Positions 5,419-22,260 of a stretch of DNA of 35,082 nt are shown here, in pieces. The notes beneath the pieces are model-generated. The model was not told the DNA's origin, did no database searches, and worked only from the letters and a program-made list of their open reading frames with translations. The position numbers and the translations under genes were made by a program. Origin of the DNA: a virus; the IMG/VR virus record IMGVR_UViG_3300017751_000082, positions 1 through 35,082 of that record. One strand, written 5' to 3'. Each line of letters begins with the position of its first letter. Within the stretch, counting starts at the first letter, position 1.

Positions 5419-8400
5419 ATGGCTAAAAGAATTCGCTCAGAAGACTTTCTACCAGAAATATTTCAAACTCCTGCTAACAAGCAATTGCTTCGTAGTACTC
5501 TTGACCAACTTACACAAAACCCAAAGTTAAAGCCAACCGAAGGTTATATTGGACGTAAGATTGGCCCTGGTGTTACTGCATCTGACAGTTATGTATTAGA
5601 ACCAACTGCTAATAGAACCGATTACCAACTTGAACCTGGAGTGGTACAACTTACACCAAATACCAACACTGTTGCAAATGCAATAACCTATCCAGGAATA
5701 ATTGATAGTCTTCAGTTACAAGGTGCAGACGTTACACGTGATGATAGACTTTTTGATAGTGAGCATTATAGTTTTGATCCTTTTGTTGATTTTGACAAAT
5801 ATGTAAATTTTAGTCAGTATTACTGGGTGCCAGAAGGCCCAAATAGCGTTGATGTATTTGGAAATACTATTCCAATTAGAGATACATTTGATGTTGCATA
5901 TACCCAAGATGGTTATACTTTTTCAGGAGAATCAGGAGCATTACCTACATTAACATTTGTTCGTCAAGGCGAATATACGTTTAACGTCAATGCAAGCGGT
6001 CATCCATTTTTCATACAAAGTGTACCAGGAACGTCAGGGGTACTTCCACAACAACCAAACCAAAGTTCGCGTGATGTACTAGGAGTAACAAACAATGGTG
6101 ATGATGTTGGAACAGTTGTTTTCACTGTGCCAGAGAAAACTGCACAAAACTTTTATTTTACACTAGCAGATATTGGATCAACAGATTTAGTCGAAGACAC
6201 ATTACAGTTCAATCAAATTAACAATGTGTTTGTTGATGTATTTTTAGAAGAGCATGGTGGCATTGACGGCATCACTGATTTGCAAAACAGAACACTTATT
6301 ATTACCACTGATACCAACACTGGTTGGGAAACACTTACTCCTTTTGATGAAACACTGTTTGATCAAGACAATCCGGGAATACCAAACGCTGGATTTGATA
6401 ATAGTGTGGCATTGGCAACAAATCCAGAGAGATATGTGCAGTGGAGAATAAACTTTAACTATGCAGATCCTTTACGTCCTTTTATGGAACTTACAAAAGT
6501 ACAAAATGTTGCAAACCTAAGCAAAACTCTAATAGAATACGGAACTGAATATGCTGGTGCAACTATGTACAAGGATGCAGAAGGTGAATTTGTAAGACAA
6601 CCATTGATCACTGCAAATCTTGATATACTTTATTACCAAGATGGAAACGCTGAAGGAAATTTTGGTGTTATTCGTCTTGTTGAACAAGCAAATTCATCAG
6701 ACCTTTTAATCGAAGACATTATTGGTAAAACAGTTTATACATCACCAAACGGTGTTGTTTTTACAAACGGACTTAAAGTACAATTTATCGGAAGTGTTGT
6801 TCCGACAAGTTATGAGAATAAAGAATACTATATCGAAGGAGTTGGTACTTCTATCGAACTTCTTCCAGTAACAAATTTTATTACTCCAGAAACATATACA
6901 ATTTCAACCACTGTACCTTTTGATAGCACAGCGTTTGACGACGGAAACTTTGACGCAACAAATAATGCTCCAACTGCACAAGATTATATGATAATAAACA
7001 GAGCCAGTATAGATCAAAATGCTTGGAGCAGAGGTAATAGATGGTTTCATATTGGTGTGCTCGAAGCAACTGCTATCTATAATAATATTCCCCTAGTAAT
7101 CAACAATGATAATCGTGCTAAACGTCCAATACTTGAATTCAGAAAAAGTCTAAAACTTTTTAATTATGGAACACTTGCAACACCTGCAGTAGATATCATT
7201 GACTTCACAGAAACAGATGCATTTTCGAACATTAACGGCACAATTGGTTACAGTGTGGATGGTTATGATTTTGTTGCTGGATCAAGAGTAATTTTTGCAA
7301 ACGATCTTGATGCAGAAGTGCGTAATAAGATTTACACAGTGAGTTTTGTAGATTTTGGCGATAGTAGTGTTGATGTTATAGACTTGCAACCAGCAAGTTT
7401 GACAACACCTGATATTCCAACCAATACAAATGTTATAGTAACATCAGGTATTACACTTCAAGGAAAATCTTATTGGTTCAACGGAACAACTTGGATATTA
7501 GGACAGCAAAAAACTGGTGTGAATCAAGCACCACTATTTGATATATTTGATAGCAGTGGTTATAGTTTTAGCAATACAACAGTTTATCCAAGTACAACTT
7601 TTGCTGGAACTAAACTTTTTAGTTATGCAGTTGGGACAGGCACCACTGATAGCATAATTGACCAGCCTTTAAAATATCTAACTATTGCCAATGTTGGTGA
7701 TATTGTTTTTGACAACAATTTATATGTCGACACATTTGTATATGTCAACGGAACAGTTAGCGTTACAAAAAACATTGACACAGGAACAGTTAGACAGTAT
7801 AATACTATAAGCACATTTGATAAGTTACTTGGATGGCAAACATCATTTGAAACAAACACACAACGACAGAGTTTCAATTTTGATTATAATGGAGCTCCCT
7901 TGGTATTGGATATTGAAGTACTAAGTGATACATCAAAAATTCCAGTTAAGGTATTTGTCGAAGGACAGTTTGTTCTTCCAAACACTTACACATATGCAAC
8001 CAATAGTGATAATGTAACAGTAATTACTTTCAACCCTAATGTATTAGGACAACCTGATACAGTACCGGTTACTGGTGCTATAGTTGAAGCTCAAGTGCTC
8101 AGCAACAGTCCGAGCAGCATTGCATTTTATACTATTCCATCAAACCTAGAATCAAATGCTATGAATGAAAATAGCAAGGACTTTACACTAGGTACAGTGC
8201 GTACACATTATGAAAGTATTTGTCAAAATTTAGAAAACTTCGAAGGTAAAATACACGGTAACAATAACGTAAGAGATTTAGGTAATGTTGTTCCTTATGG
8301 AGATCTAATACTACAACAAAGTGCGCCAGTTACTATGATGACAAATTTCATTAATGGCAGAGACTACGAATTTTTCCGTGCTATAGAATTTAATAGTTCA

Positions 8401-11400
8401 GAATATAACAAGACTAAAAACAAGATTTTAGATTATGTTGCAAACAATGATTGGTCAGGAAAAACTACTGCACAGATACTTGATGCTACGCTATTGGGAA
8501 TTAATGCAGGAAAAACCGAATCTAGTCCTTTTTATTGGACAGATGCAATTCCAAGTGGTAACACCTTTGAAACTACAACATACACAATAACACCAATTAC
8601 AACCTATGTATTTGATACTCTTAACAGTTATGACTTAACCTCTGCAAACTACAAAGGTATATTAGTATATTATACTCCTAAGAGCACTGGTATACAAACT
8701 ATACTTGTTGGAGACGGACACGAATACACTGTAGCAACCGATGGTCCAAGAATTACAATCAATAGTACAAAGATAACACTTAGCATTGGTGACATAATTA
8801 CCATTAACGAATATTCTACAACTTACGGAAGTTATGTACCAGCAACTCCTAGTATGATGGGATTATATAGCATATATCGTCCGCAAGAATTCTTAGACAA
8901 TACCTATGTAACACCAACAAATGTCATACAAGGACATGATGGTAGTTTAACTGTAGCATTTGAAAACGGTGATTTTAGAAATGATGTTTTATTAGAATTT
9001 GAAAAAAGAATTTTCAATAACATCAAAATAAATGAAGTTGAAAGATACGATCCACCCCTTCAAGCAGTTGATGTTATCCCAGGACAGTTCAGAACAACTG
9101 ATTACACTCTTACTGAAGTTAACAATATATTAAATGTTAGTTTCTTATCGTGGGTTGGTGAGAATCGTGTTCCTTATAAAAATCAAACTTATATTAAAGA
9201 CAACGCATTTACTTGGAATTATAGTCAAAGTGAAAACAGATTATCTGATGTTCCTCTATTAGGTTTCTGGAGAGGTATATATTTTGATCTTTATGATACT
9301 GATTCCCCTCACACTCGTCCATGGGAAATGGTAGGACTCAGTGTAGAGCCAACTTGGTGGCAAACAACTTACGGACCAGCTCCATACACATCAGGTAATA
9401 CTGTTCTATGGAATGACATGGCACAAGGTATTGTTGCTTACCCAACTGGAAATGTGATAAGAAAACAGTATATTCGTCCTGAGTTATTACAATGTATCCC
9501 AACTGATTCACAAGGAAATCTAGTACCGCCAATTGATAGTATTGTTGGCAGTTACGATGTAGACAGCTTTGAAAAATCGTGGGTAGCAGGAGACATGGGA
9601 CCTACTGAGGATGCCTGGAGACGAAGTAGTTACTACCCTTTCGCAATACAACGATTACTAGCATTAACAAAACCTGCACAATATTTCTCACTATTTGCTG
9701 ACAGAGATCTATGGAAATACAATACAGAGTTCAACCAATACTTGTATAATGATAGATTCCGTATTGATCCAAGTGTGATAAGCGTGTATGGTAATGGAAC
9801 AATCAAAAACAGTTATATTAACTTTATTGTTGATTACAATAGAATCACAGGTTTAGATAGTACCACTGCACTAACGGCTACTCTAGCAAATATGGATATT
9901 CGATTGTGTTATCGAATGGCTGCATTTAGTGATCAAGGATACTTAAAAATATTTTCTGAAAAGTCGTCACCAAACAGTTTAAACAGTAGTTTGTTGTTAC
10001 CAGACGAAAGTTATCAACTATTTCTCTATCAGAATCCAAGTTTTGCTGAAGTACAATATTCAAGTGTTACAGTTCAAAGAACCAGTGGTGGATGGTCAGT
10101 GTCGGGTTATTCAACAGTAAAACCTTACTTTGAAATATTACAAAGTACCATTGCTGGAACTTTTAGTACCGTAACAGTAAATGGAAATACAGTTCGTATT
10201 GCCGAAAGTTTTACAAAAAATGTAATTCAAGTTCCTTATGGTTATGTGTTTGCAACTGCAAATGCAGTGGTTGATTTTTTAGTTAGTTACGGTCAATTAT
10301 TAACACAACAAGGACTAACCTTTGATACCACAGAGAATCAAGTTATTCTTAACTGGACACAAATGGCAAAGGAATTTCTATACTGGGTAGGACAGGATTG
10401 GATTGTAGGAAGTATTATCAATCTTAACCCTGCTGCAAATGTTTTAAAATTAGAAAAGCCAAACAGTGTTGTTGAAAGCCTGGCTAATGAAAATATCAAC
10501 GATGTAATGTTAAACCAAAACTTTGGTCCGTTGCTTGGCAAAGATTATGCAGTTGAAAGACTTGGTAACGAACTGAAACTAATTGGAGTTAACAATCAAA
10601 CATTTAGTTTGTTGTCAGCAAGGTTTACTTCATATGAACATATTATAGTATTTGATAACGTTAGTATCTTCAACGATTTGATATATCAACCAATAACTGG
10701 TGCAAGACAAAATAGATTATTATTAAATGGTAATACAGTTTTTGATTGGAATGGCACACTTGATGCACAAGGTTTTATTCTCAATGAAGATAATATAGAA
10801 GAATGGGTAGCAAATACTTCTTATACTAAAGGACAAATTGTACTTTATAAAAATGCATATTGGAGTGCAACAAGATTACTATCACCAAGTGAAACATTTG
10901 TTTTTACTGATTGGATCAAGAGTGATTATGCACAAATACAAACTGGATTGTTGCCTAACCTTGCAACCAAAGCAGATAGCCTACGTGAAAATTATGATAT
11001 ACACACTGCCAATCTTGAGAAGGATTCAACACTACTAGGATTAGGACTTATTGGATTCCGTCCAAGACAATACATGCAAAACTTGAACCTAGATGATATT
11101 TCACAAGCTGGCTTGTACTCGCAGTTCTTAGGAACAAAAGGAACAATCACTGCTGCAGAAAATTTTACTAGTGCGAATCTTGGCAAAGAAGAAGCAGAGT
11201 ATGAGATTTTTGAAAACTGGGCAATACAACGTGGTATCTATGGTGCAAATGCAAACAGAAGTTATTTTGAATTACGCACAGACGAAAGTAAATTATTAAG
11301 TAATCCAAGTACTATTGCAGTTATTGATCCGCAAGAGGTATCAACTGCTAATCAGACAGTATTAGTTGAAGATATTTGGAAACAAAGTTATCCTATTACA

Positions 11401-14400
11401 AATAAAAATATTTTACCAACAGTTACAACAATTCCAGAAGATGTTAGCCTGCCGTCAGCTGGTTATGTAAACTATGACGATGTTGATATCAAAGTTTTTG
11501 ATTATAACGATTTAACAAACATACTTGCTAATTTAGATACCATATCACTTGGGACAAATATTTGGGTAGCCAAAGCAAACTCATACGATTGGAATATATT
11601 TAGAACCAATTTGGTACCAGCTAGTGTGATATCAGTTACTGACAATCTAAATGAAACAAGTACTATAACATTTGATGTCAATCACGGCTTATCTGTTAAT
11701 GATAGAATAATAATCAAATACTTTAGTGCGTCAGTTGATGGTGCTTATATTGTTGGTACTGTTCCGGGGTTAAAAACTATAACACTAACACTTAGTCTTG
11801 CTGGTGAAACAGTGTCGGTAACAGGTGATGGTCGTGCATTTATTCTTGAAAGTGTACGTGTTGCACAAGCAAGTGATGTTGCTAATTTAAGTTTTGCAAA
11901 TAATATTGTGCCAGGAAATCAAGCCTGGGTAGACAACAATGGCGATGACAAATGGACAGTTTTACAAAAAATCAATCCATTTTCTACACCAACTGACCTC
12001 GAAGCAACTACTCCGCTTGAGAACGACTTGTATGGTACAACAGTTTCACAAGGATTAAGAAATCAAGGTTTACTAATTGGGGCACCTGGACATAATTCTA
12101 GTAAAGGTGGATTATATGCACTAGGCAAGGATATCTCTGGTTCATATATACAAGTTGCACTTATAGCACCGACCACAACAGGATTTGCAGGATTTGGCTC
12201 AAGTCTCAGTGTTGGAAAATATGATTACGCAGTAGCAGGTGCTCCTGCTAGTGATAGCAACAAAGGTTATGCACTAACAGTCAACAGAAACAGTGCAGAT
12301 GGCACATATACTCAGCAACAATTGTTTAACACCGGTACCAATGATGCAGACAAATTTGGAACAAGTGTAGCAATCAGTGCAGATGAACGTTGGATGTACA
12401 TCAGTGCACCAGCAGACAATAAAGTATACGCCTACAGTAAAGTTGAAGTACAATCACAAAAGATAGAATACACTGGAGATGGTTCGACTACTGCTTTTAA
12501 TATTCAACCAACTATTGTTGTTAATGCTAGTGATGCAACGGCAACAACACAAATTGGTGTAACAGTTAACAATATACCACAAGCAGGCGGAGGAGTTGAC
12601 TGGACTTTAAGCACTGTTAGTGGAGTACAGAGAATAACATTTAATACTGCACTCAATCAAGGAGATGAGTTACGGATTATTAGACTACAGAGTGCTACGT
12701 ATTTTCCATCAGTTTCAACTACAGACTTTAGTTTTAGTACATTGTTTACTGCTAGTGACATTTATTCATTTTCAGTGTATCATGACAATGTCCTATTACG
12801 TCCATTCTTTGATTATACTATTGTAGGCACAGACGTTGTACTTGGTAGTGGAGTTACAGGAACAGTTCTTATATCAGCAAAAACACATTGGGATTTTGTA
12901 AACACTTTTACTGCAACAGGACTTGATGCAAGTGACCAATTTGGTTACGATATTTCAACTACTACAGATGGTAGACAAATAATAGTTGGTACACCTGATG
13001 CAACCATTGGAACAAATACGCTTGCTGGTGAAAGTTATATAATTGATAGAAGTGTTGAAAGATTTCAAGTTACCACTGCTTCTACCACAACACAAAACTT
13101 TACGGTAACAGAAACTCCAACTGCACCAATAGCAGTTACACTTAATGGAACGTTCCTGACTCCAACTGGGAATGCAAATGACGCACAGTTTAGTGTTGCA
13201 GGTAGTGTAGTTACCATAGGAACAACTGCGAATCCAGTAACATTACAAATTGGTGACATCATCGAAGTTGAAACAAACATTTTTAAAACCATACAACAAT
13301 TTAATTCGACACTAAACGGTGCTAGTTATTACTTTGGTCAAACTGTAGATATATGTTCAACAAATTGTAGTGCATACATTGCTATGCCAAATGACAGTGC
13401 AGTTGTTCCGGAAGGCGGGAGTGTCGAGCGTTGGATAAATCAAAATAGATTATTTGGAACTATTACTGGAACTGTTGCAAACCCAGTGTTGACTGCAACT
13501 GACTCAATAAGAATCAACAACTATTACGTAACACTCACAGGCACAACTGTTGCTAGTTTAGTTACAGATATTGCCACTGCTAATCTTCCAAACATAACTG
13601 CACAAAGCGTTGACGGTTCATTGCAGATTACATTGGAAAATGTTATTGCTGGTGAACAGTTTATTAAATTACAAGTAGCTCCTGGAGAAGGAACAGCATT
13701 TGCAGATCTTGGATTAACACCATGGGTATATGCACAAACAATTACAGCGCCAATTGCACAAGTATATGGACATTTTGGTACTAGTTTAAAGATTGATGAC
13801 AGTGCAACTACATTGGTAGTTGGTGCTCCTGATGCTACTGCAAGTTTACCAACAACATTTGATACAGACACAACATATTTTGATTCAAGAAGCACAACAG
13901 TTATTGATCCATTGGATCAATCAGGAGTGGCTTACACCTATAATTACTTGAATTCAGCAAATAGCAGTGCTACAAATCCAGGTAAGTTTGTATTTGGTCA
14001 ACAGATTTATGATACAACTATGACAAGTCTAGATAAATTTGGTTCAGCAGTTGACTATTATGATGGCATACTATTAGTTGGTGCACCAAATGACGATCTA
14101 AACGATAGCTCTGGTGATTTTGGCAGAGTAACTCAATTAACAAACGCTAATAAAGAATCAGCATGGAAAGCAATTTATACACAACAACCAATAGTTAATG
14201 CCTCATTGCTTAACAGTGTGTTTACATATAACAAAGGCAACAACGAAGTTACCAGCTACTTAGATTTCATTGATCCTCTGCAAGGTAAAATATTAGGAGC
14301 AGCACAAGCAAATATTGATTACACAGGTGGTATTGATCCAGCTGCCTACAACACAGGCACTGTAAACAACTATGGTTCGCAGTGGACCACTACTCATCTA

Positions 14401-17400
14401 GGTGAAATGTGGTGGGACCTATCAACTGTGCGTTTTATCGATTATCATCAGGATACCATTGAATACAAAGCACGTCGTTGGGGACAGTTGTTTGACGGTT
14501 CATCGGTAGACGTTTATCAATGGACTAAAAATACAGTAGCACCAGCAGATTACACAGGCGAAGGCGAAGTTTACACTACTGAAAGTTACGTAATAACCAG
14601 CGAACTTGATAGTGCAGGCACATTTATTACCTATTATTACTATTGGGTTAAAGGGCTATTAGCAGTAAGTCCAAACAAAACCTTAAGCTCAGTCGGCATT
14701 GCACAATATATTTCTAATCCACGATCAAGTGGAATATCATATACCGCTGCTATTAGTCCAAGTACAATAAGTTTGTACAATTGTAGAAATTTATTTTCAG
14801 CAAAAGATACAATACTACATGTAGAATTTGACAAGATCGAAAACAACGATAACGTTCACAGTGAATATGATTTAATTACCGTTGGTAATTCAAAAAGTTT
14901 CTTAGGTGGTAACCTTTATAGAAAATTCTTAGATAGTTACTGTGGTGAAGACACCCTTGGTAATCTTGTACCAGATGCTACATTAAGCGTTGCAGACAAG
15001 TATGGTGTTAGTTTTCGTCCAAGACAGAGTTTCTTTATTAACAGATTTCTTGCACTTGAAAACTATATGGATCGTGCAAATAGGATAATGAAACTGTATC
15101 CTATATCTGACAGCAAGAGTTTTAAATTGCTCAACAGTGAAGAACCAGAACCAACTTCAGCAAGTGGAGAATGGGACAAACGTTTATTAACCTACGCTGA
15201 ACTTACATATCAAGACCTACGTCAAGTAGCAGTGGGTTACAAATATCTTATAGCAAGTGATAGTACACAAGAGGGATTGTGGACAATTTATACGGTACAA
15301 GCAGAACAAACACTGCTACTGTCAAGAGTACAAAACTACGATACAAAACTATACTGGAGTTATGTAGATTGGAATGGCATAAACGCAGATTTTACAACCT
15401 ATAGTAGTGCAAATGCCAGCACTTATGATGTAAAATTGTACAGTGATTTATTAGCATTAACTGATGTAGCAGATGGAGTTTGGGCAACAGTAGAAGCAAA
15501 CAGTTTTGGAAAGAAAGAAGTATATCAGTATAGCACAACAACCAGTGAATGGACAAGAGTTTTCTTAGAAGATGGTACTGTTGCAATTGATAGTACTGTT
15601 TGGGATTATAGTGTAGGCAACTTTGGTTTTGATGTTGAAGTTTTTGATGCACAACGTTTTTCTCAAGCACCAAATATTGAAACAAGACAAATACTGAAAG
15701 CTCTAAACGAAGAAATATTTACTACTGATCTACAAAAATTTAGAAATGAACTGCTCATACTTACATTTGAATTTATAATGAGTGAGCAACCAGCTCCAGA
15801 TTGGTTATTCAAAACAAGTTTAATTGATGTTAATCATAAAATACGTGACCTAATTGAATATCCAATTTACAGACGTGATAACCAAGACTTTGTTAGTGAG
15901 TATATTAACGAAGTGAAGCCTTATCATGTTCAAGTAAGAGAATTTAACTTGCGTTACGAAGGCGAAGATACGTACAACGGTAGCATAACAGACTTTGACT
16001 TACCAGCTTACTACGATAGTCTCAGAGGACAGTTTGTATCACCTATACTAGATGATAGCGAAAATCCAAAATCATTAAGTGCAGTACCAAGCACTAGTGC
16101 AGTTTGGCAAACATTTCCATGGAGTCAATGGTATGACAACTATAAATTAGTAGTGAAGAGTGTAACAGTTCTTACACCAGGATCAGGTTATACAGTTGCA
16201 CCACAGGTGGTTGTAACTGGTGATGCAACAACACAAGCAACCATGACTGCAACTGTTAATACTGCTGGCGAAGTAATAAGAATAAACTTAGTAACTGCTG
16301 GCAGTGGTTATTTAACAACACCAACACTGACAATATCAGGTGGTAATGGCACAGGTGCTACTGCGATAACAGTGTTGGAACCACAACAAGTACGTGATTT
16401 TACAACCACTATAGCATATGACAGAATAACATACACAAGTCAGGTTGTTGATTGGACTGCAAATACTGCATATACTGCAAATCAATTGGTACGTTTTCCT
16501 GTGCCAACTGTTGGAGTAATTAATGCTTCTTTACCTCAAGTATACAAAGTAACAGCTAACTTTACAAGCGGAACTGCATTTGATCCAGACAACTATACCG
16601 TGGTTGATCCATCTACATTAGATGGTGCAGACAGAACAATCGGATTGTATACACCCGAGCCAAACGAACCAGGACGTGAATTAGCACAAGTGATGTCTGG
16701 AATTGACTATCCGGGAGTACAAGTCGAAGGACCAAATTTTAATCAAAACACAGGTTTTGATGTTGGAAATTTTGATATTAATCCATATGACAACATAGAT
16801 ATTGGTCCAGAAGGATTACCAACATACGATCCAGGAATACTTGATGTTATATACGAAAGTCAATTCAGTGATACATACCTAGGTACAAGATCTACTGATA
16901 TTAATATCGAAGGTGGCGGATTTATTGACACATATAGTTCACATGCTCCAGAAGAATTAATTCCTGGTAGTGAATTTGACACCCTTGATTTGAAGGTTTA
17001 CACTCGTCCAGGCAGTGATTGGAGCAGTGACGGACACGGCTTTGACATTGCTACAATAAACGTAGTGTACAACGGTGCAGGAACCACATTAGACTTTACC
17101 AGTGCAATGTTACATCCAGTTGGTATACAGGTGCTAGATATTACCACTGGCATTGTTACACCTCCTACTGCATATACTATTGACTGGGTAAACAAAGTTG
17201 TAACACTTGGTGCAACCATGCCAAGTTCAGTAGGCAACAGTATTGCAGTAAAAGTTTATGGTATAGGCGGTGGTTCGCAAATATACAAAGAAAGTATTGT
17301 TGGCACAGATGTTGTTAGCAATGTAGCAAGTATTCCTGTTGTGTTTACACAAATACATGAAATGGTAATTTTTGTAAATGGTGCAGTAATTACAGATTAC

Positions 17401-18996
17401 ACCTTTGCCGCAAGTGGTAGTTTTGCAACTGCAATAACATTTGACAGCACATATGGTGCAAGTGATTGGATTACGTTTGTTGCACTAGGTGCAACTACAC
17501 CAACACAATATTCATGGAGCACGCCGTTAGTACAGTATATCACAGGTTACGATGGGTCAAGTTTCTTAGATCCATTAACCAACAGTCTTGGTGGTACAAA
17601 TCAAGCCAATATGGTTGTGACTCGTGAAGGACAAAGACTTCGTCCACCAGAAGGTATTGAATACACAGGCGATGGTTCCAGTGCTGGTCCATATTATATA
17701 AGCACAACCGGTATTAGCAACCAAGGATTGGTGTCTGACAATGATACGTTAGTATATGTGGATAATGTAAAACAAACTCTTGCAGTTGATTATAATCTAA
17801 GTGCATGGGATGGATCAAGCGATAGATACATCGAATTTACTGTAGGTAGTATGCCTCCTGCTAATAGTGATATTAAGATTTTCACAACAACTGAAGCAGA
17901 TTATATTTTACTTGGCGATCAGTTAGATTTACGAGTGAGTGCAGCTGCCAATGCACAGTTTGGAGTTTACACTTACAATGATACTGCTCAACAAAATATA
18001 CTTACAAAAGTATTTGTTGGACCAACAACTGAAGGTGTTACAACTGGCGACGCTTTTGATGAGGTGCCTTTTGATAGTGCAGAGTTTGATAAAACAATTG
18101 GAACAACTATACAAACCAATAACTTTGCACTTGGTAGACTAGTAACAAGTCCTGAAAGACTTGTGGTTACACTCAATGGTTTCTATATTGAACAAACTGA
18201 ATACAGTTTATCTACTGACGCAAATGATAAAACAACTTTAATTTTGGATAGAAGTATTTTAAACGCCGCTGATGTGTTAGCAGTAACAATGACAACAAAC
18301 ACAGTTGTCCCTAACAGTTTAAATTTTAGAATTTTCCAGGACATGCTAGGAAATCAAAAGTTGTTGAGAATGAACACTAAAAACACAACTCAACTTACAC
18401 AAGATGTAACTGCTAGTGCAGATGTTATATATTTCCAAAATGTAAGCAAACTCAGTGAACCAAATCTAGGATCAAATATATTTGGTCAGGTAATGATTGG
18501 TGCAGAAAGAATTACATATAGAACAAGAGATACAGGCAACAACACAATTAGTGGATTGCGTAGAGGAGTAGCTGGCACAAGTGCAATGTCTCACAGTACA
18601 GGCTCTATTGCAAGTGATGTTGGTCCCGGAGAACAACTTCCTGCAACATATCAACAAAAAACAACAACTGATAAAACAAACGTTGGTGATGGTACAACCA
18701 CTAGATTTACAACAAGCATAACAGTACCAACTGGTTTAGACAGTACAGAACTTGCGGAATCGATCACAGTAACAGTTGCTGGAGCAGTGTTAGTTCCAGA
18801 AACTGATTACACAGTAACAAGCGTAGATACAACACTTACAGAAATAACATTAACTGTTGCTCCAGATCCTAACGTAGAAGTATGGTTTAGCCAGGTAACT
18901 GCAAAGGTAATGTACGCACAAGGTACTAATACTGCAAGTAATGGAATTCCACTGCAAGATCAGACCACTGCAGCAGTATTATTTCTTAAGAGTTAA
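5419..18996 (+). CDS. Giant 4525-residue baseplate/tail structural protein, in gp7 position
   Basis: This one gene fills 13.6 kb, over a third of the window. It sits directly after gp6, where T4-like phages encode the wedge initiator gp7, but T4 gp7 is 1032 residues and I see no decisive gp7 motif. The role is inferred from position. Visible modules: residues about 165-255, a cupredoxin-like beta unit (YTFNVNASGHPFF ... GTVVFTVPE); about 2215-2900, FG-GAP/beta-propeller-like repeats (LLIGAPGHNS, YAVAGAPASDS, IIVGTPDA, LVVGAPDA, LLVGAPNDD); about 3585-3650, two tandem GSGY units (VLTPGSGYTVAPQVVVTG, AGSGYLTTPTLTISGG); and three scattered GDGST-type beta units near 2350, 4080 and 4422. The last 250 residues include FRIFQDMLGNQKLLRMN and ITYRTRDTGNNTISGLRRG. 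No signal peptide or membrane segment is seen. A GGAG at 5404-5407 precedes the ATG. The modular surface domains suggest adhesion or a fibre-like extension of the baseplate. Structural role likely; exact identity moderate. Confidence 0.7.
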   Translation: MAKRIRSEDFLPEIFQTPANKQLLRSTLDQLTQNPKLKPTEGYIGRKIGPGVTASDSYVLEPTANRTDYQLEPGVVQLTPNTNTVANAITYPGIIDSLQLQGADVTRDDRLFDSEHYSFDPFVDFDKYVNFSQYYWVPEGPNSVDVFGNTIPIRDTFDVAYTQDGYTFSGESGALPTLTFVRQGEYTFNVNASGHPFFIQSVPGTSGVLPQQPNQSSRDVLGVTNNGDDVGTVVFTVPEKTAQNFYFTLADIGSTDLVEDTLQFNQINNVFVDVFLEEHGGIDGITDLQNRTLIITTDTNTGWETLTPFDETLFDQDNPGIPNAGFDNSVALATNPERYVQWRINFNYADPLRPFMELTKVQNVANLSKTLIEYGTEYAGATMYKDAEGEFVRQPLITANLDILYYQDGNAEGNFGVIRLVEQANSSDLLIEDIIGKTVYTSPNGVVFTNGLKVQFIGSVVPTSYENKEYYIEGVGTSIELLPVTNFITPETYTISTTVPFDSTAFDDGNFDATNNAPTAQDYMIINRASIDQNAWSRGNRWFHIGVLEATAIYNNIPLVINNDNRAKRPILEFRKSLKLFNYGTLATPAVDIIDFTETDAFSNINGTIGYSVDGYDFVAGSRVIFANDLDAEVRNKIYTVSFVDFGDSSVDVIDLQPASLTTPDIPTNTNVIVTSGITLQGKSYWFNGTTWILGQQKTGVNQAPLFDIFDSSGYSFSNTTVYPSTTFAGTKLFSYAVGTGTTDSIIDQPLKYLTIANVGDIVFDNNLYVDTFVYVNGTVSVTKNIDTGTVRQYNTISTFDKLLGWQTSFETNTQRQSFNFDYNGAPLVLDIEVLSDTSKIPVKVFVEGQFVLPNTYTYATNSDNVTVITFNPNVLGQPDTVPVTGAIVEAQVLSNSPSSIAFYTIPSNLESNAMNENSKDFTLGTVRTHYESICQNLENFEGKIHGNNNVRDLGNVVPYGDLILQQSAPVTMMTNFINGRDYEFFRAIEFNSSEYNKTKNKILDYVANNDWSGKTTAQILDATLLGINAGKTESSPFYWTDAIPSGNTFETTTYTITPITTYVFDTLNSYDLTSANYKGILVYYTPKSTGIQTILVGDGHEYTVATDGPRITINSTKITLSIGDIITINEYSTTYGSYVPATPSMMGLYSIYRPQEFLDNTYVTPTNVIQGHDGSLTVAFENGDFRNDVLLEFEKRIFNNIKINEVERYDPPLQAVDVIPGQFRTTDYTLTEVNNILNVSFLSWVGENRVPYKNQTYIKDNAFTWNYSQSENRLSDVPLLGFWRGIYFDLYDTDSPHTRPWEMVGLSVEPTWWQTTYGPAPYTSGNTVLWNDMAQGIVAYPTGNVIRKQYIRPELLQCIPTDSQGNLVPPIDSIVGSYDVDSFEKSWVAGDMGPTEDAWRRSSYYPFAIQRLLALTKPAQYFSLFADRDLWKYNTEFNQYLYNDRFRIDPSVISVYGNGTIKNSYINFIVDYNRITGLDSTTALTATLANMDIRLCYRMAAFSDQGYLKIFSEKSSPNSLNSSLLLPDESYQLFLYQNPSFAEVQYSSVTVQRTSGGWSVSGYSTVKPYFEILQSTIAGTFSTVTVNGNTVRIAESFTKNVIQVPYGYVFATANAVVDFLVSYGQLLTQQGLTFDTTENQVILNWTQMAKEFLYWVGQDWIVGSIINLNPAANVLKLEKPNSVVESLANENINDVMLNQNFGPLLGKDYAVERLGNELKLIGVNNQTFSLLSARFTSYEHIIVFDNVSIFNDLIYQPITGARQNRLLLNGNTVFDWNGTLDAQGFILNEDNIEEWVANTSYTKGQIVLYKNAYWSATRLLSPSETFVFTDWIKSDYAQIQTGLLPNLATKADSLRENYDIHTANLEKDSTLLGLGLIGFRPRQYMQNLNLDDISQAGLYSQFLGTKGTITAAENFTSANLGKEEAEYEIFENWAIQRGIYGANANRSYFELRTDESKLLSNPSTIAVIDPQEVSTANQTVLVEDIWKQSYPITNKNILPTVTTIPEDVSLPSAGYVNYDDVDIKVFDYNDLTNILANLDTISLGTNIWVAKANSYDWNIFRTNLVPASVISVTDNLNETSTITFDVNHGLSVNDRIIIKYFSASVDGAYIVGTVPGLKTITLTLSLAGETVSVTGDGRAFILESVRVAQASDVANLSFANNIVPGNQAWVDNNGDDKWTVLQKINPFSTPTDLEATTPLENDLYGTTVSQGLRNQGLLIGAPGHNSSKGGLYALGKDISGSYIQVALIAPTTTGFAGFGSSLSVGKYDYAVAGAPASDSNKGYALTVNRNSADGTYTQQQLFNTGTNDADKFGTSVAISADERWMYISAPADNKVYAYSKVEVQSQKIEYTGDGSTTAFNIQPTIVVNASDATATTQIGVTVNNIPQAGGGVDWTLSTVSGVQRITFNTALNQGDELRIIRLQSATYFPSVSTTDFSFSTLFTASDIYSFSVYHDNVLLRPFFDYTIVGTDVVLGSGVTGTVLISAKTHWDFVNTFTATGLDASDQFGYDISTTTDGRQIIVGTPDATIGTNTLAGESYIIDRSVERFQVTTASTTTQNFTVTETPTAPIAVTLNGTFLTPTGNANDAQFSVAGSVVTIGTTANPVTLQIGDIIEVETNIFKTIQQFNSTLNGASYYFGQTVDICSTNCSAYIAMPNDSAVVPEGGSVERWINQNRLFGTITGTVANPVLTATDSIRINNYYVTLTGTTVASLVTDIATANLPNITAQSVDGSLQITLENVIAGEQFIKLQVAPGEGTAFADLGLTPWVYAQTITAPIAQVYGHFGTSLKIDDSATTLVVGAPDATASLPTTFDTDTTYFDSRSTTVIDPLDQSGVAYTYNYLNSANSSATNPGKFVFGQQIYDTTMTSLDKFGSAVDYYDGILLVGAPNDDLNDSSGDFGRVTQLTNANKESAWKAIYTQQPIVNASLLNSVFTYNKGNNEVTSYLDFIDPLQGKILGAAQANIDYTGGIDPAAYNTGTVNNYGSQWTTTHLGEMWWDLSTVRFIDYHQDTIEYKARRWGQLFDGSSVDVYQWTKNTVAPADYTGEGEVYTTESYVITSELDSAGTFITYYYYWVKGLLAVSPNKTLSSVGIAQYISNPRSSGISYTAAISPSTISLYNCRNLFSAKDTILHVEFDKIENNDNVHSEYDLITVGNSKSFLGGNLYRKFLDSYCGEDTLGNLVPDATLSVADKYGVSFRPRQSFFINRFLALENYMDRANRIMKLYPISDSKSFKLLNSEEPEPTSASGEWDKRLLTYAELTYQDLRQVAVGYKYLIASDSTQEGLWTIYTVQAEQTLLLSRVQNYDTKLYWSYVDWNGINADFTTYSSANASTYDVKLYSDLLALTDVADGVWATVEANSFGKKEVYQYSTTTSEWTRVFLEDGTVAIDSTVWDYSVGNFGFDVEVFDAQRFSQAPNIETRQILKALNEEIFTTDLQKFRNELLILTFEFIMSEQPAPDWLFKTSLIDVNHKIRDLIEYPIYRRDNQDFVSEYINEVKPYHVQVREFNLRYEGEDTYNGSITDFDLPAYYDSLRGQFVSPILDDSENPKSLSAVPSTSAVWQTFPWSQWYDNYKLVVKSVTVLTPGSGYTVAPQVVVTGDATTQATMTATVNTAGEVIRINLVTAGSGYLTTPTLTISGGNGTGATAITVLEPQQVRDFTTTIAYDRITYTSQVVDWTANTAYTANQLVRFPVPTVGVINASLPQVYKVTANFTSGTAFDPDNYTVVDPSTLDGADRTIGLYTPEPNEPGRELAQVMSGIDYPGVQVEGPNFNQNTGFDVGNFDINPYDNIDIGPEGLPTYDPGILDVIYESQFSDTYLGTRSTDINIEGGGFIDTYSSHAPEELIPGSEFDTLDLKVYTRPGSDWSSDGHGFDIATINVVYNGAGTTLDFTSAMLHPVGIQVLDITTGIVTPPTAYTIDWVNKVVTLGATMPSSVGNSIAVKVYGIGGGSQIYKESIVGTDVVSNVASIPVVFTQIHEMVIFVNGAVITDYTFAASGSFATAITFDSTYGASDWITFVALGATTPTQYSWSTPLVQYITGYDGSSFLDPLTNSLGGTNQANMVVTREGQRLRPPEGIEYTGDGSSAGPYYISTTGISNQGLVSDNDTLVYVDNVKQTLAVDYNLSAWDGSSDRYIEFTVGSMPPANSDIKIFTTTEADYILLGDQLDLRVSAAANAQFGVYTYNDTAQQNILTKVFVGPTTEGVTTGDAFDEVPFDSAEFDKTIGTTIQTNNFALGRLVTSPERLVVTLNGFYIEQTEYSLSTDANDKTTLILDRSILNAADVLAVTMTTNTVVPNSLNFRIFQDMLGNQKLLRMNTKNTTQLTQDVTASADVIYFQNVSKLSEPNLGSNIFGQVMIGAERITYRTRDTGNNTISGLRRGVAGTSAMSHSTGSIASDVGPGEQLPATYQQKTTTDKTNVGDGTTTRFTTSITVPTGLDSTELAESITVTVAGAVLVPETDYTVTSVDTTLTEITLTVAPDPNVEVWFSQVTAKVMYAQGTNTASNGIPLQDQTTAAVLFLKS

Positions 18997-21111: not shown

Positions 21112-21119
21112 AATAAATA
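21112..21119 (+). promoter_or_regulatory. Late promoter box AATAAATA before the structured leader
   Basis: It fits NATAAATA and lies just after the stop of the first fibre gene. Late-promoter geometry puts transcription start near 21125, about 12 nt before the first stem of the predicted RNA fold. The leader before the ATG at 21248 would then be about 123 nt, far longer than the 15-20 nt leaders elsewhere in this module. Confidence 0.5.
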
Positions 21120-21124
21120 TGATT

Positions 21125-21247
21125 ATAAGATAACCAGCTATGGTGGAATCAACGACGTGGTGAAAACTAAGGTATAAACTGACTCGCAAGAGGACGCCGT
21201 AAACTATAGCGTATATTACATACTAATACAAAGGAAAGAAATAAGAA
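21125..21247 (+). promoter_or_regulatory. Structured 5' leader RNA (unassigned class)
   Basis: This stretch between two fibre genes has no ORF but folds on paper. P1 is 21137-21144 with 21203-21210, 8 bp including one G-U pair. Inside it, P2 is 21152-21157 with 21195-21200, five pairs and one A-C mismatch. P2 encloses P3 (21158-21169: UGGU, GAAA loop, ACUA) and P4 (21183-21192: CUC, GCAA loop, GAG). Both hairpins have GNRA tetraloops, P3 stacks directly on P2, and the whole P1-closed element is 74 nt. An alternative 4-bp hairpin (21133-21144) competes with P1; its GCUA loop could pair with UAGC at 21207-21210. An AAGGA-type ribosome site (21231-21235) follows about 20 nt after P1. I could not match it to glutamine riboswitches, hammerhead ribozymes or tRNA. 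A regulatory leader, ribozyme or stability element are all possible. Confidence 0.5.
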
Positions 21248-22207
21248 ATGACATATTCAGCAGGAAACACCATTGTAGATGATGACTACAATATATTTGC
21301 AACGGGTAACGCCGCAGGAACAGGTGATCAATCAGTAGCCAATATTAACTCAATAATTGGAGTTGGTGGAAATGAATTTGGATACGGACAAGGAACTGAG
21401 TTAACTCCAGTAGCAGCTGGTGATAACGTACAAGCAACAGACTGGTCCAGCTTGTTAACAAGAAATACCACACTTGCTAACCACCAAGGAACAACAATTA
21501 CAGGAATTTCAAATCCATCAGCTGGTGATACGATTGCAGCATATGCGGCATTGAGTGCAAACATCACTGCAACATTTAACGGAAAATTAAATGCGGCAGG
21601 CTCAGGATCAGATATAACACGTACTACAACAACAACTTCTGGTTGGAACACAAGTGCAGTACTCACACAAACAGTTACCTTTCCAAGTAGAAATCAACTA
21701 AGATATTTTTTCAATGCAGGCGGAATGATTCGTTGTAGTTGGTCAAGGTCAGGTGGTACAACAAGTGATCAAAACACTTCATGGACTAACACACTTACTG
21801 CTGCTGGAACAATTGTTCTTACAAGTGATGGAGCATCAAAAACTATTGCAGGTACAGCCTACACAGGAATAACCAAACTTGGTGGATCAGGTACAAACCA
21901 AATATTATTAACATCCAATGGAATATATGATATATCTGCTACACCAACAATACAATTTAAACAAATTCCACCTACAGGATATGGCGATAACGAAATTGAA
22001 TATTATATGTCAATTCCATCAAACGGAACAGTGCTTACAATAAAAACAGACTTGTCAGATGATTATACTCCACCAGATCCTGGATCACCAGATTTAGTAG
22101 ACGGTACACTAACGCAGACTTTAGTAGTACGACCACCAAGTACAACTTATTTGTCAGATTCATGGGGAACTCCAGTAATAAGTTCTAACAGTTGGGTACA
22201 GTCATAA
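21248..22207 (+). CDS. Virion structural/fibre-like protein (319 aa)
   Basis: The N-terminal domain (AGNTIVDDDYNIFATGNAAG, then YGQGTELTPVAAGDNVQATDWSSLL) is a pattern I associate with marine T4-like virion proteins of unknown exact location. The following 200 residues are Thr/Ser/Gly-rich and beta-like (IVLTSDGASKTIAG, KLGGSGTNQILLTSNG), as expected for a trimeric fibre or a tail decoration protein. No enzyme motif, signal peptide or membrane helix is visible. It is the last gene before a strong terminator and the only one here with a long structured leader, so its expression may be controlled separately from the other late genes. The ATG is 12 nt after an AAGGA ribosome site. Confidence 0.65.
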   Translation: MTYSAGNTIVDDDYNIFATGNAAGTGDQSVANINSIIGVGGNEFGYGQGTELTPVAAGDNVQATDWSSLLTRNTTLANHQGTTITGISNPSAGDTIAAYAALSANITATFNGKLNAAGSGSDITRTTTTTSGWNTSAVLTQTVTFPSRNQLRYFFNAGGMIRCSWSRSGGTTSDQNTSWTNTLTAAGTIVLTSDGASKTIAGTAYTGITKLGGSGTNQILLTSNGIYDISATPTIQFKQIPPTGYGDNEIEYYMSIPSNGTVLTIKTDLSDDYTPPDPGSPDLVDGTLTQTLVVRPPSTTYLSDSWGTPVISSNSWVQS

Positions 22208-22229
22208 TAATTGACTAACAAATACTAGA

Positions 22230-22260
22230 AACCCTAGTTTTTATTAACTAGGGTTTTTTT
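22230..22260 (+). terminator. Strong intrinsic terminator closing the structural module
   Basis: AACCCTAGTT (22230-22239) and AACTAGGGTT (22246-22255) form a perfect 10-bp stem with a 6-nt loop. The T-run spans 22254-22260. It lies 22 nt after the fibre gene stop, between the structural genes and the accessory island. Confidence 0.92.

Follow-up and report, generated by a model that had tools for sequence, protein, structure and literature searches.

The leader of a tail gene in the genome of an uncultured phage is a real, evolutionarily conserved folded RNA. It lies within a 35,082-nt stretch of viral DNA (IMG/VR record IMGVR_UViG_3300017751_000082, hereafter the window), and its helices covary across homologous leaders. 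The fold comprises two three-way junctions, the outer of which encloses the Shine-Dalgarno (SD) element of the downstream gene; on balance we favor a role for the RNA as a cis-acting structured leader through which translation of the tail gene is controlled at initiation, via this SD.

A structured leader precedes a tail gene

In the window, 140 nt separate the stop codon of the upstream gene (21107) from the ATG at 21248, and transcription from the predicted start of a late-promoter-type box within this gap would give a leader of about 123 nt. Leaders from the other NNTAAATA boxes in the window measure about 0 nt (1562 and 19016), 15 nt (1980 and 24439) or 20 nt (19683), making the present one exceptional in length, as a preliminary description of this DNA had pointed out. 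That description had also assigned the leader to a late promoter. The box is present in the window, and marine tail-gene leaders begin just 3' of the promoter, but the promoter-proximal position is not general: freshwater members are intercistronic, filling the gap from the stop codon of the preceding gene to the ATG, without a late box. If late transcription indeed takes place, 5' ends should fall at the G of GCAACGCC, with starts of the 21125 type in marine members.

The outer frame of the RNA runs from P0, a helix between CC(C) and the SD sequence GG(G), through a single A to P1, P5 and the linker UAAUACAAA, so that the junction of P0, P1 and P5 encloses the SD (Table 1). The inner junction (P2, P3 and P4) is optional and is inserted in P1 of full members; its P2 has the form NNN-GACG/CGCC-NNN with a conserved A.C mismatch. 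Compact members carry a short loop in place of all P1 contents, and about half of the members have the outer part only. The nested P1 and P2 helices with two GNRA-capped hairpins first proposed for the window are backed by comparison (its loops are GAAA and GCAA), but GNRA loops do not define the family, occurring at P3 in 8 of 21 full members and at P4 in 5 of 21; beyond the clade of the window, few have them. P0 and the P5 hairpin were absent from that first fold. Its suggestion of two alternative states is not supported: the competing hairpin (ACCA-GCUA-UGGU) is present only in the window's own clade, and no conserved structure competing with the leader fold was found among the members.

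Table 1. Features of the leader and its surroundings (positions in the window; p values are tree-aware)
Feature	Position	Strand	Observation
Late-promoter-type box AATAAATA	21112..21119	+	Predicted +1 near 21125; kept only in marine relatives
Whole structured leader RNA, P0 to SD	21133..21235	+	Homologues in about 50 distinct leaders
P0 5' strand CC, pairs with 21233-21234	21134..21135	+	RNAalifold; third pair C-G to U-A, p 0.004-0.012
P1 5' strand GCUAUGGU, pairs with 21203-21210	21137..21144	+	Pairs 3-7 covary, p 0.001 each
P2 5' strand ACGACGU, conserved GACG (A.C mismatch)	21152..21158	+	P2-1 p 0.004, P2-2 p 0.001
P3 hairpin UGGU-GAAA-ACUA	21158..21169	+	Paired in 21/21; each of three pairs has four or five pair types (p 0.001)
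P4 hairpin CUC-GCAA-GAG	21183..21192	+	P4-3 p 0.001; P4-2 UA to CG in 12 homologous uptake-gene leaders
P2 3' strand GACGCCGU, conserved RRCGCC	21193..21200 (pairing part 21194-21200)	+	CGCC invariant, 21/21 full members
P1 3' strand ACUAUAGC	21203..21210	+	Covariation with 5' strand
P5 hairpin GUAU-AUUAC-AUAC	21211..21223	+	Variants GUAGG/CCUAC, GUUG/CAAC, GUAU/AUAC; pairs 3-4 p 0.001
Linker UAAUACAAA	21224..21232	+	Near-invariant, all members
GG of presumed Shine-Dalgarno (P0 3' strand)	21233..21234	+	9-13 nt 5' of ATG, most members
Putatively controlled gene, 319-aa virion/tail protein	21248..22207	+	Distant PA5oct homologue annotated as MS-detected; AlphaFold pLDDT 88
Intrinsic-terminator-like hairpin and T run, 3' of tail gene	22229..22260	+	Read from sequence

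Across homologous leaders, many compensatory changes were found in P1 and P2, bearing out the helices first proposed. Against a null in which one column evolved along the protein tree, 12 pairs reached a tree-aware p of 0.001 (P1-3 to P1-7, P5-3, P5-4, P2-2, P3-1 to P3-3 and P4-3), and low values were also obtained for P2-1 and the third P0 pair (Table 1). None of the 28 outer-frame controls (register or unrelated pairs) reached p<=0.01, and the lowest p among 12 inner-junction controls was 0.053. Pair 3 of P1 occurs as UA, AU, GU, GC and CG and is paired in 51/51 sequences, as is pair 3 of P5 (UA or AU). RNAalifold independently recovered the outer structure including P0, with double changes in 7 of 13 pairs, and found P1, P2 and P5 in the full-member set; slid and shuffled controls scored far below the real alignments. 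In variable pairs G.U outnumbers A.C (34 versus 10), indicating that it is the plus-strand transcript that is under selection.

Energy alone would not single out the window leader, whose minimum free energy (MFE) is -16.0, compared to -15.6 +/- 2.9 for dinucleotide shuffles (z -0.12). An MFE that is not unusual and a compact conserved core would suit a chance structure or a small self-processing RNA or ribozyme, but the covariation rules out a chance fold and no Rfam ribozyme matches; we consider this explanation very improbable.

Distribution of the leader and its relation to known RNAs

Searching IMG/VR with the 319-aa product of the downstream gene gave 41 loci, and searching with a profile gave 80. 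Homologous leaders were read upstream of these loci, and scanning for patterns of the 3' part brought the collection to about 50 distinct RNAs. All verified leaders of the tail-gene form precede the same virion/tail gene family, and among the family loci from both protein searches (n = 104), 28 have the full RNA, 12 the compact form and 64 none. The covariance model R1, made from compact leaders, found one convincing copy per record of roughly 300 kb, in contigs of up to 340 kb; the carriers are uncultured giant T4-like phages. The leader DNA had no match in cultured phages. In genome contigs, a first pattern had no match and a second had 14 (GC 47-70%), which lack the inner module and were taken as chance. 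Nearly all matches to the first core pattern were GC-rich coding sequence, and inner-module matches in L363 and 40 similar sequences were prophage coding sequence; these too were set aside as chance.

The GG element lies at a similar distance 5' of the ATG in the members. Several freshwater members keep an AAGGATT-like former SD 5' of the RNA, as RNA-less relatives do, which suggests that the leader arrived by insertion 5' of the start codon, behind an SD that was already there. In one such comparison (L303 versus L246), the two loci have in common the stop codon and AAGGATTGAAAT, located 5' of the RNA or, in the RNA-less case, of the ATG.

At gathering thresholds, Rfam 15 gave no match in the window, in keeping with the earlier impression that the leader falls in no known class; searched up to E 10, the leader gave two chance snoRNA matches outside its structured part. 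Leaders at ten related loci likewise had no family match. The window leader matches none of the Rfam 15 models, which include the glutamine, SAM, preQ1 and cobalamin riboswitches, ribozymes and the S15 leader; a cobalamin-like core noticed by eye therefore came to nothing. No paper describing the leader RNA was found in the literature, and its absence from Rfam means that annotation pipelines miss it. Overall, the leader belongs to no described family tested, and in its proposed working it resembles known SD-masking leaders.

In translational riboswitches of the SAM-II and preQ1-II type, the SD is held in a closing pairing. The tail-gene leader is likewise small, closes with a pairing that includes the SD and lies directly before one gene, but it differs in its lack of an Rfam match, its nested three-way junction, its exchangeable inner junction and the phage virion gene that it precedes. 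To our knowledge, phages have few known regulatory RNAs, and among those we found, none acts on a tail gene or on a group of uptake genes. The glutamine riboswitch (glnA type) is a structured regulatory RNA that also occurs in marine T4-like phages (Melnitz, PMC9004378), but the window leader does not match it even at E<=10. S15-type leader RNAs form a structure over the ribosome-binding site (PMC5100602), as proposed here, whereas the present leader has no Rfam match and no ribosomal-protein gene.

An inner junction shared with uptake-gene leaders

A scan with the inner module alone returned matches in many unrelated phage contigs that carry a larger leader, composed of P1 (GC/GC), hairpin A (AACGCC..GACGU), P2 (CGG/CCG), the same inner junction and P5. 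In an alignment of 35 of these uptake-gene leaders, 94.3% of cells pair, the covariation score is 0.444 (0.187 shuffled and <=0.106 slid), and 11 pairs reach a tree p of 0.001. A scan for the late box and hairpin A, with the inner junction left out of the pattern, gave at least 106 distinct leaders; among the matches listed, 91 of 106 contain the inner junction. Pair 2 of P4 is UA in 64 leaders and CG in 12, a compensatory replacement masked by the earlier scan pattern. Among the matches listed, the inner module occurs in well over 100 uncultured phage contigs; L364, L370, L378, L399, L447 and about 100 further contigs have an uptake-gene leader with the same inner junction, and the genes behind it serve mostly in solute uptake.

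The covariance model of these leaders (R2), built without any tail-gene leader, finds tail-gene leaders in G018 (E 1.2e-8), G019 (E 1.7e-8) and G001 (E 0.005). The window leader itself has no R2 match at E<=0.05, and its class of inner junction (GACGUGG..) is tied to the R2 family via intermediate tail-gene leaders with the same frame. Hairpin A and a start at the late-promoter +1 are both absent as features of tail-gene leaders. Three marine tail-leader records (G001, G002 and G004) also have a related leader, here followed by a TctA-type gene; Pfam confirms this gene in G004 and G002, whereas in G001, with its weak R2 match (E 0.0145), it was assigned by eye; the tail gene of G004 is about 66% identical to that of the window. 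Co-occurrence of the two leaders is not strict, as three large uptake-leader records have no clear tail-gene leader.

By clustering, the ORFs downstream of uptake-gene leaders (n = 104) include 26 grouped with DctP solute-binding proteins, 25 with TctC-type proteins, 10 with putative PP-loop enzymes (recognized by eye and without a Pfam match), 6 with porins and 6 with radical SAM proteins, with smaller groups of hexapeptide transferases, DUF2061, TauD, desaturases, SBP_bac and TctA. The initial view of an RNA dedicated to one fiber gene is thus correct for the tail-gene form, which precedes one virion family in one copy per record, but not for the inner junction, which heads many other genes. 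One covarying junction module links a virion gene with nutrient-uptake genes and offers a defined RNA with which to approach the question of late-infection sensing of host metabolism by lytic phages.

The inner junction could be the aptamer of a riboswitch, placed before uptake genes and the tail gene, whose ligand would be a metabolite reflecting the nutrient state of the host. Its junction nucleotides are invariant while the helices vary freely, the same junction stands before DctP, TctC, other solute-binding, porin, TctA, TauD and desaturase genes, and R2 reaches two tail-gene leaders at the E values of order 1e-8 given above. However, the downstream genes are chemically diverse, with PP-loop, radical SAM, hexapeptide transferase and virion genes also among them, no terminator or anti-SD platform was seen in uptake-gene leaders, and compact members are without the inner module. 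The association with metabolism and transport genes holds for the inner module, not the tail gene. We regard such an aptamer as unlikely. Tentatively, the leaders may belong to a modular phage-specific RNA superfamily, in which an exchangeable three-way-junction sensor, its transcription beginning at the first base of late promoters, would tune uptake genes and the tail protein to a common intracellular signal in giant T4-like phages of lakes and seas.

In 44 of 47 uptake-gene leaders, the TAAATA box lies 5 or 6 nt from the first G, placing the start of the RNA at the expected late +1, with its 5' end in helix P1. Together with the marine tail leaders that begin right after the promoter, this is what would be seen if the structure passively protected late mRNA from decay, or insulated it from the upstream gene, with no switching. 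The freshwater members, intercistronic and lacking a late box, do not conform to this, the sequence conservation of junction and linker far exceeds what a stabilizer needs, and just one or two genes per genome carry the RNA; we find a purely passive role quite improbable.

Ten records (L513, L520, L539, L555, L557, L562, L563, L568, L570 and L590) keep hairpin A and P5 but have another sequence, GACCUCU..UUAA..GUGGGCC, as inner domain; the genes that follow encode radical SAM and other proteins, and inner domains look exchangeable. The three-way-junction module is present in tandem duplicate within a single leader in L390, L393 and L473/L488. A Sigma70-like TTGACA..TATAAT lies between the leader RNA and the gene in nine records (L378, L391, L417, L432, L450, L452, L456, L469 and L476), and in these the late-promoter RNA may also exist as a transcript of its own. 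The L390, L433, L447 and L396 contigs have phage tmRNA genes (permuted-model matches) alongside the related leader, and L396 also has an AdoCbl-II riboswitch.

Proposed control of translation initiation and the downstream gene

The recurrence of CC(C) opposite GG(G) before the start codon, where GG(G) is the tail gene's only SD-like element, makes translational control the best-supported reading. The outer junction would serve as expression platform: when it is stabilized, P0 would mask the ribosome-binding site, and when P0 opens the site would be free. The inner junction, stacked on P1, may act as a sensor or effector-binding module that stabilizes or destabilizes the outer one. A lowering of translation by masking, the sense in which control runs and the binding of a trans factor by the inner module are inferred. 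Although a conserved helix, P0 comprises only 2-3 pairs, with A.A at the third pair in five members including the window, and is weak in the window itself (pairing probability 0.02; mean 0.38 and range 0-0.99 across members); such marginal mean stability fits the need of a switch. The SD-like GG lies 9-13 nt from the ATG, above the usual distance. Since compact members are without the inner module and 64/104 loci have no RNA, the control appears to be dispensable. A pseudoknot of the P5 loop with AUCA before CCC suits many freshwater members but not marine ones and was dropped.

The tail protein, or another phage protein, might instead bind the outer junction and repress its own translation. 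T4 offers precedents in its gp32 and RegA translational operators (PMC3014915, PMC535899), phage leaders that control initiation of one gene and whose protein partners are known, and the outer frame is found solely before the tail gene, in one copy per record. Here, however, there are two junctions, the inner module is common to unrelated genes, a poor fit for a gene-specific repressor, and homologous tail genes often have no RNA. Autogenous control by such an operator seems doubtful to us, and we retain SD masking by the outer junction as the preferred reading.

The 319-aa product had no Pfam, PHROG or PDB-fold match, and a fold search in BFVD returned uncharacterized phage proteins only; its designation as a fiber protein is only probable. 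A short leader peptide (MVESTTW*, ATG at 21140) was rejected, as its frame is lost in relatives. Elsewhere in the window, a single 4525-aa ORF occupies positions 5419-18996, between a gp6-like baseplate gene and the tail-fiber region.
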